Source: Bacillus sp. J33
Lineage (GTDB): Bacteria; Bacillota; Bacilli; Bacillales; Cytobacillaceae
DNA: 35,193 nucleotides
NCBI RefSeq assembly: GCF_000518885.1
Contig: NZ_JAEL01000056.1
Location: forward strand, 1 to 35,193
Direction of reading: 5' to 3'
Both the position numbers and the translations under genes were made by a program. Below, piece by piece: positions 11,822 through 35,193 of the stretch. How positions within the stretch are numbered: the first letter of the stretch is position 1; the number at the start of each line of letters is the position of its first letter. Under the pieces are notes generated by a model. It worked only from the letters and a program-made list of their open reading frames with translations, searched no databases and was not told the DNA's origin.

Positions 11822-13661
11822 ATCGAGTAGAGGGAAAATAAATTTGTTTTATTTTCGCCCCTCTCACAACACCGTACGTACGGTTCGCGTATACGGCGTT
11901 TCAATTTATATTGCAGTGTGTACTTTTAGGTAATGTTCTAGCGCAGAGGGGAGTCCCCTCTGCTGTAGTCTTTTGTTTGAGATAGCTCTTTGGACGACTT
12001 TCGATAATCCTGTATACCGGTAACCTTTTCGACAGAAAGTTAATCCTTTTGCTTCTTCTTTCGGAATCCCGAGCTGAATAAGCGATTTGATTTGCTTTTT
12101 CGGTATCTTCCATTGCTTCCAGATGATTACCCTAATTCTGGAGCGAAGCTTCTGATCTATTTTTTGAGTCACTACTTTCATATTTGCAATCCTGAAGTAA
12201 TTTACCCATCCGAATATGACCTGTTTCAGTTTCAATATTCTATAGTCCAGAGAAACACCCCAGTTTCGCTTTGTCAGTCTTCGAAGTTTTCTTTGAAATT
12301 TCTGTATTGAAATTGGATGGGGTTTTACTTGATATCTCTTATTTTTGGTGTCGTAATAATAAGCGAATCCTAAGAACTTTAGTTCTTTTGGACGAGAGAT
12401 TTTACTCTTCTCTACGTTAACTATTAGTCCCAATTTATTTTCTATAAACTTCACGATAGATTTCATTACTCTTTCCGCTGCTTTCTCGCTCTTTACAAAA
12501 ATGAGGGAATCATCAGCGTATCTCACGAATCGCAATTCTCTACTACCTAGTTCTTTATCAAGTTCATTTAACATAATGTTACTCAATAATGGGCTGAGGT
12601 TACCTCCTTGCGGAGTCCCAACTGGTGTTTCTTCATAATTTCCATTCACCATAACACCACTAACTAAGTATTTTCTGATTAGCGAAATAACGTCTCCATC
12701 ATCTATTGTCTTGGCAATAAGCCGCATGAGTTTATCGTGGTGGACCGTATCGAAGAATCTTTCAAGGTCAATATCTACTACCCAATCATTTCCATCATTT
12801 AGAAATTCCAAACTTTTTATAATCGGTCTGAAGCCGTAACTGAATTCGCTGAACTGCTCTTCAAATATCGGGCTGAGCACTTGATGAATAGCTTGTTGAA
12901 CTACTCTATCCACTACTGTTGGTATTCCCAATTTGCGCATCTTTCCATTTTCTTTTGGGATTTCCACTCTTAAGGCAGCTTGTGGTTGGTATTTTCTTGT
13001 TCTGATGCGCTTGCGAAGCTCATCCTTGTTCTCATTCAGATATTTCTTCAGCTCGTCGACTGTTACTCCGTCGACACCACTTGCACCTTTATTTCTATAG
13101 ACACGCAAGTAGGCTTCATTCATATTTTGATTACTTAGAATCTGTTCTAAAAGTTCCACACTCGTTTCTCCTTCCCTCTCACGTAGTAAGTGATAGCTCC
13201 ATTTTGATTTATCCTTTGAGATACGCTCATACTTTCACCATTAACACATTCGGAGTACGTCACTTACGCATTCGTGGGGTTGAAACACTATAAATTGTTC
13301 AGCCCTTCATGAATTTGTTCCATTACTATGGCTTCTGCTGACTTCTTGCGATTAACCTTTTTCGACTGTACTTTTGTACATCCGCAAGACCTCCCAGGGT
13401 AAGACACCTATCTTTCCTCTTTTACTCGTCTGATTTACTCTACAAAGTTACGTACATCTTTAGGACTTTGATTTGTTGTGGAATCTCATCCCTTTATAGA
13501 GCCTTAGTATCAGATTTCTGTTCGTCGAGCCAAGATTTTATTCCACGCTTCCTCCAGCCCTTGCCTCACGGTAAGTACCCTGCGCTTCCTTAGTGGTTGG
13601 TTGATGTATACCCCCACAGTGGACTTTCACCACCTAGATAGTTGCCATGCCTGGCACACAC
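11822..13661 (-). mobile_element. Group IIC intron, full length, inserted after the tkt terminator
   Basis: On the minus strand the element starts GTGTG (13659-13661), continues CCAGGCATGGCAACTATC and TAGGTGGTGAAAGTCC, as in bacterial class C introns, and encodes a maturase-reverse transcriptase. It ends with a domain V hairpin (about 11868-11902, GCCGTATACGCGAACCGTAC) and a domain VI-like stem ending CTACTCGAT at about 11822. The 13160-13661 part is the structured 5' RNA (domains I-III). The intron starts directly after the T run of the tkt terminator and reads in the tkt direction, the known target preference of class C introns. Exact ends are good to a few bases. Confidence 0.9.
11906..13159 (-). 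CDS. Group II intron reverse transcriptase/maturase (class C)
   Basis: A 417-residue protein encoded inside the intron. It shows RT block 1 (KLGIPTVVDRVVQQA, residues 77-91), the first catalytic Asp in VVDIDLERFFD (D129, D131), TPVGTPQGGNLSPLLSN, the YADD box (214-217), the thumb/X maturase domain (about 290-340, GWVNYFRIANMK) and no endonuclease domain, as in class C. The start of RT block 2 is odd: YGFRP (residues 108-112) runs straight into IIKSLEF, where relatives I recall have about 7-8 more residues (NRSCEMA-like). This looks like an in-frame deletion at about 12823, so the enzyme may be inactive. Confidence 0.93.
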   Translation of the reverse strand: MELLEQILSNQNMNEAYLRVYRNKGASGVDGVTVDELKKYLNENKDELRKRIRTRKYQPQAALRVEIPKENGKMRKLGIPTVVDRVVQQAIHQVLSPIFEEQFSEFSYGFRPIIKSLEFLNDGNDWVVDIDLERFFDTVHHDKLMRLIAKTIDDGDVISLIRKYLVSGVMVNGNYEETPVGTPQGGNLSPLLSNIMLNELDKELGSRELRFVRYADDSLIFVKSEKAAERVMKSIVKFIENKLGLIVNVEKSKISRPKELKFLGFAYYYDTKNKRYQVKPHPISIQKFQRKLRRLTKRNWGVSLDYRILKLKQVIFGWVNYFRIANMKVVTQKIDQKLRSRIRVIIWKQWKIPKKQIKSLIQLGIPKEEAKGLTFCRKGYRYTGLSKVVQRAISNKRLQQRGLPSALEHYLKVHTAI

Positions 13662-18738: not shown

Positions 18739-18828
18739 TGTTACTTTTCTCATTGAATCACTGTGCTTTCCTATTACAAATTCCGGTAATCAATGATTTT
18801 TCATCCATTTTATGATATTATTTCAACT

Positions 18829-18903
18829 GGGCAAATTTCACGAAAGTGGGAGACGCAAAGCCACGGGCCTAAAGCGATAAAAAGTCATGGCAGCCGGGCT
18901 GCA
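18829..18903 (+). ncRNA. Cyclic di-GMP-I (GEMM-I) riboswitch, copy 1
   Basis: The sequence has the GEMM-I order: GGGCAAA, P2 with the GNRA loop CACGAAAGUG, GACGCAAAGCCAC joining region, GGGCCUAAAG tetraloop receptor in P3, then UCAUGGCAGCCGGGCUGC closing P3 and P1. This class binds cyclic di-GMP. P1 is short. Downstream, CCTTC (18919-18923) can pair with GAAGG (18947-18951), the ribosome site of the next gene. AATTTGCC (18925-18932) is perfectly complementary to the P1 strand GGCAAATT (18830-18837). Control of translation is therefore likely; on/off direction is not clear. Confidence 0.95.
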
Positions 18904-18959
18904 TTTTAAAAATAAATACCTTCCAATTTGCCTAATACAGCTATGAGAAGGGTGCAGAC

Positions 18960-19145
18960 ATGATTTATCCAACCGTTATCAGCAAAGAGTCGAATTTGGT
19001 GCATATCGTAAAGGATCAAAATACCTGTGTATGCGGATTCAGATATAATGCCTTTACCACCTTCACCAGGAAAGACCTTAAAAAGATAAAATTTAAGCCG
19101 GAAAAGGTTGTTACCTGTCCGAACTGCAAATCCACCATTCAATGA
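18960..19145 (+). CDS. 61-residue CxC/CxxC protein under c-di-GMP riboswitch control
   Basis: A small protein starting MIYPTVISKES. It has C23-x-C25 (NTCVCGFRY) and C53-x-x-C56 (VTCPNCK), with FTTFTRKDLKKIKFK between, so it probably binds one zinc as a small ribbon. It is soluble and basic, with no signal peptide. AAGGGTG stands 7 nt before the ATG. The protein at 34080-34301 is a gapless paralogue (34 of 61 aligned residues identical by my count) behind a second copy of the riboswitch. I do not recognise the family; possible roles include RNA or protein binding as a c-di-GMP output. It converges on glnA. Confidence 0.85.
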   Translation: MIYPTVISKESNLVHIVKDQNTCVCGFRYNAFTTFTRKDLKKIKFKPEKVVTCPNCKSTIQ

Positions 19146-19166: not shown

Positions 19167-19198
19167 TAAAAAAGCCTTGGCACAGAGGCCAAGGCTTG
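19167..19198 (-). terminator. Rho-independent terminator of glnA
   Basis: Minus strand AAGCCTTGGC / GCCAAGGCTT, 10-bp perfect stem with a 6-nt loop, then six T. Confidence 0.93.
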
Positions 19199-27792: not shown

Positions 27793-28755
27793 TTATGTAT
27801 TCGATTTTATTTTCAGCTTTCCTTCAATATGAGAAGAAATTTCCGCGAATTTTTTTTCAAACTCATCGGGGTCAGCTGTATCGGACATATCAAACCATTC
27901 CACATTCATCTTATTTCGAAACCAGGTTAGCTGCCTTTTTGCATATCTCCGTGAATTTTGCTTCAGATTTCCTATGGCATCTTCCAAGGAAACACGCCCA
28001 TTGAAGTATTCATACAGCTCTTTATACCCGATGGCCTGGATGGACTGGCAATCCTTTAATCCCTGGTCAAACAAGGATTTAACCTCTTCCAGCAAGCCTT
28101 GTTTCATCATGATGTCGACACGGAGATTGATTCGCTCATACAATTTTTCCCGGGCCATCGTCAAACCAATCAATGCTGTATCATAGAGGAGTTCGGGGCT
28201 CTGGTTCTCCTGAAACTGGGACATTGCTTTGCCTGTACAATGATAAATCTCCAATGCGCGAATGACTCTGCGGATATTATTTGGATGGATTTTGCTTCCG
28301 CTTTCCGGGTCTATTTCCATCAGCTCTTTATATAGCGCCTCATTGCCTTCCCTTTCCGCCCGTTCCTCCAAAGTCTGTCTGAAATCATCATCTGAAGGAG
28401 CCTCAGAAAATTGGTAATCGTAAATGACTGACTGGATATACAATCCTGTGCCCCCTACGATCATTGGGAGTTTGCCTCTTGAAATGATTTCCGAGATTTT
28501 GCTTCGGACCAACTCCTGAAATTCAGCTGCTGAAAAAGGTTCTTCTGGATGTTTGATGTCAATCAAATGATGTGGAATCCCTTCCATTTCTTCTTCTGTA
28601 ATCTTGGCGGTTCCTATATCCATACTCTTATAAATCTGCATGGAATCGCCGCTGATAACTTCAGCATTGAACTTTTTGGCAAGAAGAATGCTTAATTTTG
28701 TTTTTCCAACTGCTGTAGGCCCAATCAGCACTACAAGCTTTTCTTTTTCACTCAT
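27793..28755 (-). CDS. miaA: MiaA, tRNA dimethylallyltransferase
   Basis: A 320-residue enzyme that adds the dimethylallyl group to A37 of UNN-reading tRNAs. It shows the P loop GPTAVGKT (12-19), SGDSMQIYK, the tRNA-binding segments PMIVGGTGLYIQ and QAIGYKEL, and the C-terminal RRYAKRQLTWFRNK. Start is the ATG at 28755, which fits the family N-terminus; a longer frame from 28794 lacks a ribosome site at proper distance. First gene of miaA-hfq. Confidence 0.97.
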   Translation of the reverse strand: MSEKEKLVVLIGPTAVGKTKLSILLAKKFNAEVISGDSMQIYKSMDIGTAKITEEEMEGIPHHLIDIKHPEEPFSAAEFQELVRSKISEIISRGKLPMIVGGTGLYIQSVIYDYQFSEAPSDDDFRQTLEERAEREGNEALYKELMEIDPESGSKIHPNNIRRVIRALEIYHCTGKAMSQFQENQSPELLYDTALIGLTMAREKLYERINLRVDIMMKQGLLEEVKSLFDQGLKDCQSIQAIGYKELYEYFNGRVSLEDAIGNLKQNSRRYAKRQLTWFRNKMNVEWFDMSDTADPDEFEKKFAEISSHIEGKLKIKSNT

Positions 28756-29001
28756 TTGTTCACTGCCTTTACTGCCGTTGTTTTTACCCCGCATTTACGG
28801 GCAGCAACTCCCTGATGGAAGTTTCACTTTATTATCCTACCATAAAGAAGGAAAAATTTTCAGGTATCATCTTCCCATTCTTTATAAAAACAGAACATTT
28901 AAGCAGTATGAACAAATTTACCCATACCTATTCGACAAGTTTCCTAAAATTTTCATAAAAGATTACATTTTTTTAACGTTTTTATAACAATTAAAGGTTG
29001 G

Positions 29002-29029
29002 CCCCCTTATTCATGTTAATTTATTAGAA
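29002..29029 (+). promoter_or_regulatory. Possible SigI-type promoter of mreBH
   Basis: GGCCCCC (29000-29006) and AGAA (29026-29029) loosely match the ACCCCC and CGAA elements reported for SigI, which drives mreBH in B. subtilis. Both elements deviate, so this is weak. Confidence 0.25.
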
Positions 29030-29073
29030 GGTTGTATTGTGACAATATAAATGGAGAATTGGGTGAATAATCT

Positions 29074-30081
29074 ATGTTAAATACATCTGAAATTGGAATT
29101 GACTTAGGGACTGCTAATATCCTTGTATATAGCAAAACAAAAGGAATTATTCTAAATGAACCATCTGTAGTAGCAATTGATACAGAAACGAAAAAAGTGT
29201 TAGCTGTTGGTAAAGAAGCAAAAGAAATGATCGGAAAAACGCCAGGGCGAATCGTTGCTATCCGCCCGCTTAAAGATGGCGTTATTGCTGATTATGACAC
29301 CACGACTGAAATGCTTCGCCAGGTAATGAGAAAGGCGTCGAAAAAAGTAGGATTCGCGATCAGAAAGCCGAATGTCGTTGTGTGTACACCATCTGGCTCT
29401 ACAAGTGTGGAAAGAAGAGCCATTCATGATGCCGTTCGCAATGCCGGCGCTAAAAAAGTTCATCTAATCGAAGAACCGGTAGCAGCCGCAATCGGTGCCG
29501 GCATGCCGGTTGATGAGCCAGTTGCCAACGTTGTCGTTGATATTGGAGGCGGTTCAACTGAAGTTGCGATTATCTCTTTCGGAGGCGTTGTAGCATGCCA
29601 TTCTATCCGCATCGGCGGTGACAGATTGGACGACGACATCATTCAGTATGTCCGCAAAGAGTATAATGTTCTAATCGGTGAAAGAACAGCAGAGCTAATT
29701 AAAATGGAAATTGGCTATGCCTTAGTAGACCACGAAGAATTAACAATGGAAGTGAGAGGACGTGACCTTGTCACAGGTCTTCCTAAGACTATTTCATTAT
29801 CATCCTATGAAATTCGCGACGCGATCAAAGAGTCACTTCTTCATATCCTTGAAGCAATCCGTGCAACATTAGAAGACAGCCCAGCTGAACTAAGCGGTGA
29901 CATCGTAGACCGCGGTGTTATTCTATCTGGCGGCGGAGCCCTATTAAATGGCATGCAGGATTGGCTATCACAGGAAATCGTTGTACCAGTTCACCTTGCC
30001 CCAAGCCCGCTGGAATCTGTAGCAGTCGGAACAGGCAAAGCACTTAAATTTATTGATAAACTGCAGACTGCAGTAAGATAA
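29074..30081 (+). CDS. mreBH: MreBH, actin-like cell-shape protein
   Basis: A 335-residue bacterial actin. It has phosphate 1 motif [14 protein letters not shown], connect/phosphate 2 [15 protein letters not shown], and adenosine motif [14 protein letters not shown]. The length and details ([25 protein letters not shown]) match B. subtilis MreBH rather than MreB or Mbl. It guides lateral wall synthesis and autolysin LytE. Monocistronic. Confidence 0.95.
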
Positions 30082-33928: not shown

Positions 33929-33937
33929 ATTTCCTCT

Positions 33938-34012
33938 GGGCAAATTTTACGAAAGTAAAAGACGCAAAGCATCGGGCCAAAAACAGCTTAATGTCATAGC
34001 AGCCGGGTTGCA
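33938..34012 (+). ncRNA. Cyclic di-GMP-I (GEMM-I) riboswitch, copy 2
   Basis: GGGCAAAUU, P2 UUUUACGAAAGUAAAA with a GAAA loop, GACGCAAAGCAUCGGGCC, then GUCAUAGCAGCCGGGUUGC. Same order as copy 1. P2 changed on both sides (CAC/GUG to UAC/GUA), keeping the pairing. The tetraloop receptor is less standard (CCAAAAA), so affinity may differ. Downstream, AGTTTGCC (34042-34049) pairs with the P1 strand (33939-33946, one G·U), and CCTT (34036-34039) pairs with AAGG of the ribosome site (34067-34070). Confidence 0.92.
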
Positions 34013-34079
34013 CAAGTATATTACCTATACACTACCCTTCTAGTTTGCCTGTACTTTTAGCTATGAAAGGTTGAAAAAT

Positions 34080-34301
34080 ATGATTTTCCCGACAGTTAAC
34101 AGCAACGATTCTGGTTTAAGACATGTAATTAAGGATCAAAACTATTGCTTATGTGGCGTTAAATACCATGTCTTTTCTACATTTACAAAAAGTGATTTTA
34201 AGAAGATTCAATTTAAAAAAGTAGATAATGTCACCTGCCCTAAGTGTAAAGCCATTATATCTGCTCATCACTCTAAGACTCCTTCACATCGATTTTATTA
34301 A
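34080..34301 (+). CDS. 73-residue CxC/CxxC protein under c-di-GMP riboswitch control (paralogue)
   Basis: MIFPTVNSNDS, HVIKDQNYCLCG, FSTFTKSDFKKIQFK, VTCPKCK, with a 12-residue extra C-terminal tail (AHHSKTPSHRFY) relative to the 61-residue paralogue at 18960-19145. The four cysteines and H15 are kept, with no gaps. Start ATG 34080, AAAGG 9 nt upstream; TTG 34071 is possible but overlaps that site. It lies in accessory DNA near a phage integrase and converges on the FbpA-like gene. Function unknown. Confidence 0.83.
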   Translation: MIFPTVNSNDSGLRHVIKDQNYCLCGVKYHVFSTFTKSDFKKIQFKKVDNVTCPKCKAIISAHHSKTPSHRFY

Positions 34302-34303
34302 CT

Positions 34304-34735
34304 TCAGACGGCATTGTGTTTTTCTGAAAAACATTTCACGTATGGACCCTCCACATAGTAATAATTGGGCTTTCCACAAGTCTTACAGGTCATAGAGTAA
34401 GTATTCCAACGCTTGTTGCAGTCTCTGCATTCCACCAATAAGATGTTATTGCGATGTCCTATTACCATTCCGTTGGCCAAACATTTCGGGCATCTTGTAA
34501 CCGGCTTAACATTTGTAATGCTCATGTTTATTCTCCTTTCAGAAAACCAGGTGTTTTCGGCAGCCTCTGTGTCAATATCACGGAAAGACGCAACTACAAG
34601 TTCATATTTAAGTTCCTCGTAATAGCATTCATGGATTCTCTTTCCCGATTGAGTTTTAGAAATATTCAATTCTGCTAATCTCTTGATGAGGATATTCCTT
34701 TTCTGCTTCATAACGGATTCATAAAGGATCCCCAT
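34304..34735 (-). CDS. FbpA-like domain joined to a zinc ribbon
   Basis: A 143-residue frame. Residues about 1-64 (MGILYESVMKQKRNILIKRL…YYEELKYELVVASF) resemble Fur-regulated basic protein A-like peptides. Residues about 71-143 form a cysteine-rich part (RCPKCLANG, ECRDCNKRW, TCKTCGKPNYYY, VKCF) that looks like a zinc ribbon. ATG 34735 has GGGGAG 8 nt upstream. AAAGGAG also stands 7 nt before an internal ATG at 34525 (MSITNVKP), so the ribbon may also be made alone. Divergent from the integrase. Function unknown. Confidence 0.65.
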   Translation of the reverse strand: MGILYESVMKQKRNILIKRLAELNISKTQSGKRIHECYYEELKYELVVASFRDIDTEAAENTWFSERRINMSITNVKPVTRCPKCLANGMVIGHRNNILLVECRDCNKRWNTYSMTCKTCGKPNYYYVEGPYVKCFSEKHNAV

Positions 34736-34778
34736 AGAATCAACTCCCCGATATAAGCATATAGAGGTGAGATTATTC

Positions 34779-35193
34779 ATGGCTAGTTTCAAAAAAGGGG
34801 TAATTCATGGCAATACAGAATTAAATATATAGACCCTGCTACTGGAAAACCGAAAGAAAAAAGTAAAAGTGGATTTAGAACGAAAAAAGAGGCACAGATT
34901 GAAGCTGCTGAAGTGGAGAAAAAGTTTTATCTCCGGCAACATTCTGTTATTGCGAATAGCGAAACTATACTAAAGGATTGGCTTACAGAATGGTTAGAAA
35001 TTTATGGAGCCCAATGCGCAGAAAGAACATTATTTAATCGATCTTGGTATATCAATAATCATATTATCCCAAGCCTTGGAAATTATAAAATGAATCAGTT
35101 AACACGGATAGAATATCAAAAATTTATTAATACCTTAGTTGAAAAAGGATACGCTAAAAAAACCATTCAGACGATTCATTCTATTTTTTGTAC
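34779..35193 (+). pseudogene. Phage-type tyrosine integrase, N-terminal part, frameshifted at AAAAAAGGGG
   Basis: ATG 34779 with GAGGTGA 8 nt upstream encodes MASFKKG, then the frame is lost and stops at 34830-34832. In the -1 frame the protein continues GNSWQYRIKYIDPATGKPKE, SGFRTKKEAQIEAAEVE (AP2-like arm-binding domain), LKDWLTEWLEIYG, RSWYINNHIIPSLGNYKMNQ (core-binding SAM-like domain) to the window edge. A -1 slip or one added A gives MASFKKRGNSWQYRIK, the usual integrase start. The catalytic domain is outside the window, so the element continues rightwards. Frameshift, slippage or sequencing error are all possible. Confidence 0.82.

Follow-up and report, generated by a model that had tools for sequence, protein, structure and literature searches.

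To our knowledge, few c-di-GMP outputs are known in Gram-positive bacilli. Class I c-di-GMP riboswitches of either direction are described, the functional ones of C. difficile acting by transcription termination (excerpts of PMC6366702). In Bacillus methanolicus such a riboswitch stands before sinI, and the excerpted text names as targets, besides sinI, a single signalling operon and two functionally uncharacterised genes (PMC4342826). Phage carriage of the riboswitch is not new either, since the C. difficile c-di-GMP-I riboswitches Cdi1_4 and Cdi1_5 lie in prophages, where, in the passages of PMC3649979 drawn on here, they belong to a host-lysis module. On the protein side, one-domain zinc finger micro-proteins have been reported from Haloferax volcanii, several of them important for biofilm formation and swarming (abstract openings of PMC6562870 and PMC10716476).

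We analysed a 35,193-nucleotide stretch of the Bacillus sp. J33 genome (the window), which holds two c-di-GMP-I aptamers, each in the 5' leader of a same-strand microprotein gene with platform strands between RNA and gene, the platform being weak for copy 2 (Table 1). Both aptamers cover all 87 positions of the RF01051 model (gathering score 35 bits; cmscan of the window with Rfam) and are ordinary full-length members of that known class, predicted to bind its ligand. Where they depart from other RF01051 switches is in their target, a microprotein family below every Pfam and NCBIfam cut-off, and from the C. difficile switches in a mode of action predicted to be translational. The aptamer class is known, whereas the target family and the cassette were not found described in the literature searched. 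A preliminary description of this DNA knew of no such protein among c-di-GMP-I targets, and the search agrees: no matching title or abstract opening among the open-licence papers listed describes this protein with a c-di-GMP riboswitch. Our reading, to which we give about an even chance, is that the gene encodes a small, basic zinc-ribbon regulator or adaptor, made at low c-di-GMP from a one-gene riboswitch cassette with a translational off-switch. The aptamers, the leader strands that recur, the purifying selection, the conserved ligands and, in two clades, the SinR-type and ECF-type sites are computed results, to which zinc, the direction of the switch and a regulatory function are added by inference.

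Table 1. Positions of the riboswitch, leader and gene features in the window.
Feature	Position	Strand	Basis
c-di-GMP-I (GEMM-I) aptamer, copy 1	18820..18906	+	RF01051, 73.3 bits, E 9.9e-13
Aptamer strand a, GGCAAAUU, copy 1	18830..18837	+	sequence; can pair with 18925-18932
Putative anti-Shine-Dalgarno strand c, CCUUC, copy 1	18919..18923	+	CCTTC:GAAGG pairing; 9% of shuffles equal
Putative anti-aptamer strand a-prime, AAUUUGCC, copy 1	18925..18932	+	sequence; complement of strand a
Shine-Dalgarno region GAAGG, copy 1	18947..18951	+	sequence; pairing with strand c
Gene for 61-aa basic zinc-ribbon-like microprotein, copy 1	18960..19145	+	ORF; homologues; dN, dS
Terminator-like stem between copy 1 gene and convergent glutamine synthetase gene	19172..19197	not assigned	
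c-di-GMP-I aptamer, copy 2	33929..34015	+	RF01051, 63.5 bits, E 2.4e-10
Putative anti-aptamer strand AGUUUGCC, copy 2, one G-U pair	34042..34049	+	sequence; leader motif
Gene for 73-aa microprotein, copy 2, ATG at 34080	34080..34301	+	ORF; in probable prophage remnant
Phage integrase N-terminal part, cut by window end	34913..35193	+	PF14659, E 3.5e-16

The covariance models bear out what had been proposed from the letters alone, a GEMM-I aptamer before a 61-residue protein and a second one before a paralogue (Table 1), with 53 nt between aptamer and ATG in copy 1 and 64 nt in copy 2. The paralogue had been given as identical at 34 of 61 residues; the identity stands (56%), the length does not, copy 2 having 73 residues. 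Likewise the unit is present twice in the window, as had been said, and the genome has a third microprotein copy, on contig C168 (locus L009), for which an Rfam scan gave no RF01051 match upstream; its leader still has CCTTTC...AATTTGCC...GAAGG. Only seven RF01051 sites occur in the 5.56 Mb of the genome (196 contigs), two of them before a microprotein gene, and by simple arithmetic the chance of a site less than 160 nt before a given gene on the same strand is about 1 in 10,000. Chance or artefact as the origin of the pair is ruled out by the covariance matches, this site density, the recurrence of the pair and purifying selection on the gene. Another of the seven, at 1501-1589 of L004 (contig C5:5538-5626), lies directly before a 48-aa SinI-like gene adjoined by a convergent SinR-like gene, the arrangement excerpted above for B. 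methanolicus, with c-di-GMP leading into the SinI/SinR circuit, and c-di-GMP may thus feed the biofilm switch in Bacillus sp. J33. At L009 an aptamer (1743-1825) follows the third copy's stop by 47 nt and precedes a response-regulator receiver gene standing on its own; its platform, judged by eye, is of the same kind as those of the microprotein leaders. Three more aptamers (L002 1501-1584, L005 1501-1585, L006 1501-1585) have no obvious known target, those of L002 and L006 being followed by tiny ORFs without a Pfam match.

A single-protein search of the same bacterial family found the microprotein at 74 places in 60 of 193 genomes and 12 of 25 genera. Since RF01051 occurs in 189 of the 193, its presence in a genome is uninformative and its position is what informs: Rfam scans placed a same-strand aptamer fewer than 160 nt ahead of the gene at 42 of the 74 loci, a count of trials that are not independent, the loci being related by descent. 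A profile search of the order matched 16 of 397 genomes, two already counted, and gave 15 new places, eight with the aptamer upstream. The arrangement thus extends over 11 genera in two families, and is missing from 32 of the 74 and seven of the 15 places (39 of 89). Homologues do not, then, generally lack the aptamer, and the real riboswitch-gene pair argued for in the preliminary description is backed by its position. L040-L042 are the same records as L011-L013 and were excluded from the counts, and L085 repeats L024; L045 (in-frame stop) and the incomplete L081 and L082 are within the 74 and outside the protein tree, as is the fragment L100. The nearest named relatives, at 90-93% identity, are Cytobacillus oceanisediminis and an isolate that bears the name Pseudomonas sp. 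ISL-84; a phylum-wide profile search of 398 genomes matched the organism's own genome only (1/398). By eye, the leaders of L044 and L064 look like decayed aptamers that have retained the platform motif.

Copy 1 follows genes for LexA and for a DUF4257 protein and precedes a convergent glutamine synthetase gene; L102, L104 and L105 have in common a stretch with sigma-54, CggR and GAPDH genes (by clusters, Pfam being run on L102); and L106, L108, L109 and L116 are in prophage-like regions, with RecT, YqaJ and ORF6N/ORF6C domains at L108 (Pfam). With surroundings as different as these, RNA and gene evidently keep together. Two gene clusters next to copy 2 recur at L108 and L109, and because of these and the integrase domain at the right end we read 32-35 kb of the window as a probable prophage remnant that includes copy 2, the tRNA-modification and MreB-type genes at 27793-30081 being host-like. 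The two window copies, cited earlier as one unit at two loci 15 kb apart, are therefore not simply two chromosomal units. Cdi1_4 and Cdi1_5 are likewise in prophage regions, although in a lysis module, as excerpted, where the prophage copies here are near recombination genes and encode a zinc-ribbon-like protein. At L094-L097 we also noted members that lack the aptamer and converge with a gene for a ribosome-hibernation factor beside fliS, that is, at a motility locus (Pfam on L094 only).

It might be supposed that the microprotein is a passenger of mobile elements, a prophage moron useful to the phage whose expression c-di-GMP merely times, the chromosomal copies being old prophage remnants. 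The integrase part beside copy 2, the RecT- and YqaJ-like neighbours at L108 and L109 (Pfam on L108, shared clusters), the variety of contexts and two IMG/VR viral contigs with aptamer and gene (L122, L123) all speak for such an origin, as does the fact that the third copy's contig and a gene-bearing IMG/VR contig are both 25720 long. Yet copy 1 and L102 adjoin housekeeping genes, sinI-like genes are associated with one clade, purifying selection holds outside prophages too, and searches with one query protein matched none of 50,697 phage records and one of 72,556 plasmid records (39% identity with no listed gene beneath, left out of our counts). Overall we consider the passenger explanation rather unlikely.

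Our case for a regulated cassette is drawn from 50 leaders, 42 from the family and eight from the order. A TTGCC-type motif complementary to the GGCAAA strand of the aptamer is present in 46, on which the pairing and accessibility tests were run, and absent in four short leaders (L032, L037, L060, L073). It is flanked by a CCUUUC-type strand upstream and by the Shine-Dalgarno region downstream, giving the order a, c, a-prime, Shine-Dalgarno. Helices a:a-prime and c:Shine-Dalgarno would cross and so be mutually exclusive, and together with the strand order this predicts shut-off by c-di-GMP; as no U-run was seen after the hairpin, the predicted switch is translational. With c-di-GMP bound, the aptamer would retain its 5' strand GGCAAAUU, the CCUUUC-type strand would pair with the Shine-Dalgarno region and translation would be off. 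In its absence, GGCAAAUU would pair with AAUUUGCC, the crossing helix would be lost and the Shine-Dalgarno region freed, such that the protein would be made, accumulate at low c-di-GMP and in effect report that state. The small effector suggested earlier, which might pass on the c-di-GMP signal by zinc-dependent binding, would with this direction signal low c-di-GMP. The proposed cassette would comprise, in order, a promoter, the aptamer, the translational platform and the gene for a basic protein of ~61-75 aa. A promoter-like TGnTAnnnT (extended -10-like) motif precedes the aptamer in 47 of the 50 leaders, against 314 of 7261 control windows; since it lies just before GGCAAA, at 16-20 nt (once 31), transcription would start near the aptamer. 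A consensus promoter scan had no plus-strand hit at the two window copies, and a single search pattern for a Sigma-D-like promoter matched before none of the 50 aptamers.

Folding of the platform alone gave a mean Shine-Dalgarno accessibility of 0.12 versus 0.32 in shuffles, with 40 of 46 leaders under their shuffle mean and 21 of 46 significant singly at the 5% level. When the alternative helix was enforced the mean rose to 0.46 (0.24 for the unconstrained whole leader), accessibility being raised in 43 of 46 and not in L011, L090 and L093, a rise that is partly by construction because an enclosing helix blocks upstream pairing. Strand c can form at least 5 bp with the Shine-Dalgarno region in 44 of 46, over 24 sequence combinations and with a mean score of 15.2 versus 11.3 in shuffles; tested individually, it outscores its shuffles at the 5% level in just 14 of the 46 leaders. 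In window copy 2 (L007) it pairs over 4 bp, not better than shuffles, and in two close relatives of copy 1, L011 and L012, strand c finds its best match beside the Shine-Dalgarno region, not over it.

Genus g18 has no upstream aptamer at any of its 11 loci. In ten of them GTTCT-N6-AGAAC, one mismatch being allowed, stands ~40 nt ahead of the start; in L081, where the start is uncertain, the distance is 73 nt. The other 64 of the 74 loci have no such box and control windows have it in 10 of 1300. This is the form of the inverted repeat bound best by B. subtilis SinR, a repressor of biofilm-formation genes (excerpts of PMC3163267), and we regard it as a candidate SinR-type operator. A scan of up to 1.5 kb found a sinI-like motif downstream on the same strand at eight of the 11 g18 loci, all eight with the box, and near none of the other family-set loci; Pfam SinI exceeded its cut-off in all four that were run out of the eight. 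At five of the eight an aptamer stands between the microprotein gene and the sinI-like gene, RF03167 (c-di-GMP-I-GGC) in L065, L067, L069 and L072 and RF01051 in L070. These resemble the sinI riboswitch excerpted for B. methanolicus, here following a microprotein relative, and a hairpin drawn by eye from the aptamer 3' end over the Shine-Dalgarno region suggests that this sinI leader is an on-switch. Within 150 nt of either window copy no SinR box was found at up to one mismatch, and the whole window, at up to two, has 22 versus 16.0 expected, no clear excess (9 of 100 shuffles had as many). In a second clade, of five loci, GNAAC-N16/17-CGTC stands upstream at 67-68 nt (in 1 of 910 control windows), which we take to be an ECF-sigma-type promoter, again a candidate. 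In the protein tree the SinR-type and ECF-type groups are each set apart by a single branch (100/100 and 100/97), and control-type labels require 10 changes versus 31.7 in shuffles, on 65 columns that leave many forks open.

The SinR-type clade brings a conflict of polarity with the predicted switch, the main clade being off at high c-di-GMP and the SinR-repressed clade on in matrix-producing cells; either the clades may differ in role or the predicted switch direction may be wrong. If the latter, the riboswitch would turn translation on and the protein would be made at high c-di-GMP as part of the sessile programme, matching the SinR-type control seen elsewhere. Since SinR represses biofilm genes, the ten genes with a SinR-type box would be expressed in sessile cells; class I switches of both directions are known from the sources excerpted above, and six of the 46 leaders hide the Shine-Dalgarno region no better than shuffles. 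However, the a, c, a-prime, Shine-Dalgarno order makes the two helices exclusive and predicts shut-off by the ligand, and we therefore think an on-switch improbable and keep to translational shut-off, as predicted from the strand layout in 46 of 50 leaders.

The microprotein is conserved and under purifying selection, including copies outside prophages. Copy 1 compared with L011-L013 gives dN of 0.042-0.068 and dS of 0.60-0.90, and across 18 pairs dN/dS is 0.04-0.46, at most 0.16 in 17 of them and weakest as a sign of constraint for L007 (window copy 2) and L024. P4, C25, I43, F45, C53 and C56 are invariant in 45 members; at H15 there are 44 His and a single Cys, which would still supply a zinc ligand. 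The CxC...CxxC motif first put forward as the zinc site was rejected in part: C25, C53 and C56 hold throughout, C23 is kept in 35 of 45 rows, and H15 becomes the probable fourth ligand. H15, C25, C53 and C56 are likely zinc ligands, four conserved potential metal ligands being what one expects of zinc ribbon proteins. The isoelectric point is over 7.9 in all 77 translated rows, with a median of 9.4.

Pfam had nothing over cut-off for either window protein (for copy 1 the best was PF05207, 17.4 bits versus 29.2), NCBIfam gave none for copy 1 and two below cut-off for copy 2, and Pfam on the 45 members reached a best E-value of 8e-4, any one family matching at most four members. A sequence search of the PDB found no solved relative (best E-value 0.31), and a fold search with a moderate model (pLDDT 73, 8 sequences) gave no useful match to a solved structure. 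PHROG 15583, 9859 and 4864, all of unknown function, matched 13, three and one of the 45 members, and were set aside as the family because the best E-value, 2.6e-05, was too weak. The H. volcanii micro-proteins offer an analogy only: they too are very small with a predicted zinc site, but they are archaeal, have two C(P)XCG motifs, and come without mention of a riboswitch in the titles and abstract openings.

Given its size, charge and probable single His-Cys-Cys-Cys zinc site, the likeliest role is that of a regulator or adaptor in the motile-sessile change, with nucleic acid or another protein as its binding partner. A role in handling zinc, as a store, chaperone or redox sensor whose control reflects changed needs for zinc or in the envelope, would suit a protein with one probable zinc site and little else, the ECF-type promoter at five loci, and the CxxC motifs and weak, below-cut-off HypA match of copy 2's neighbour at 34304-34792, but seems quite unlikely to us, as the invariant non-ligands P4, I43 and F45 and the strong basic charge suit a binding domain better and no metal-uptake gene was seen among neighbour clusters common to at least three of 22 stretches.

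For the regulator or adaptor, the predicted inputs c-di-GMP and SinR/SinI concern lifestyle, and the third, ECF sigma, concerns envelope state. A wider and tentative proposal, which we hold to be rather unlikely as a whole, is that this family of zinc-ribbon microproteins, apparently undescribed until now, serves as a movable regulator or adaptor in the motile-sessile change, made at low c-di-GMP, with its self-contained cassette in hosts and prophages and its control re-wired, in whichever direction, among c-di-GMP, SinR/SinI and an ECF sigma factor. A conserved one-gene c-di-GMP output with a readable predicted off-switch and SinR- and ECF-type relatives gives a direct handle in one small gene, and c-di-GMP-sensing cassettes are shown here in prophage-like regions of this group of bacilli. 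Elsewhere in the window, the minus strand has a selenocysteine tRNA match at 816-908 (58.3 bits versus a gathering score of 47) and parts of a group II intron at 11822-13575, with a reverse transcriptase/maturase ORF at 11906-13159.
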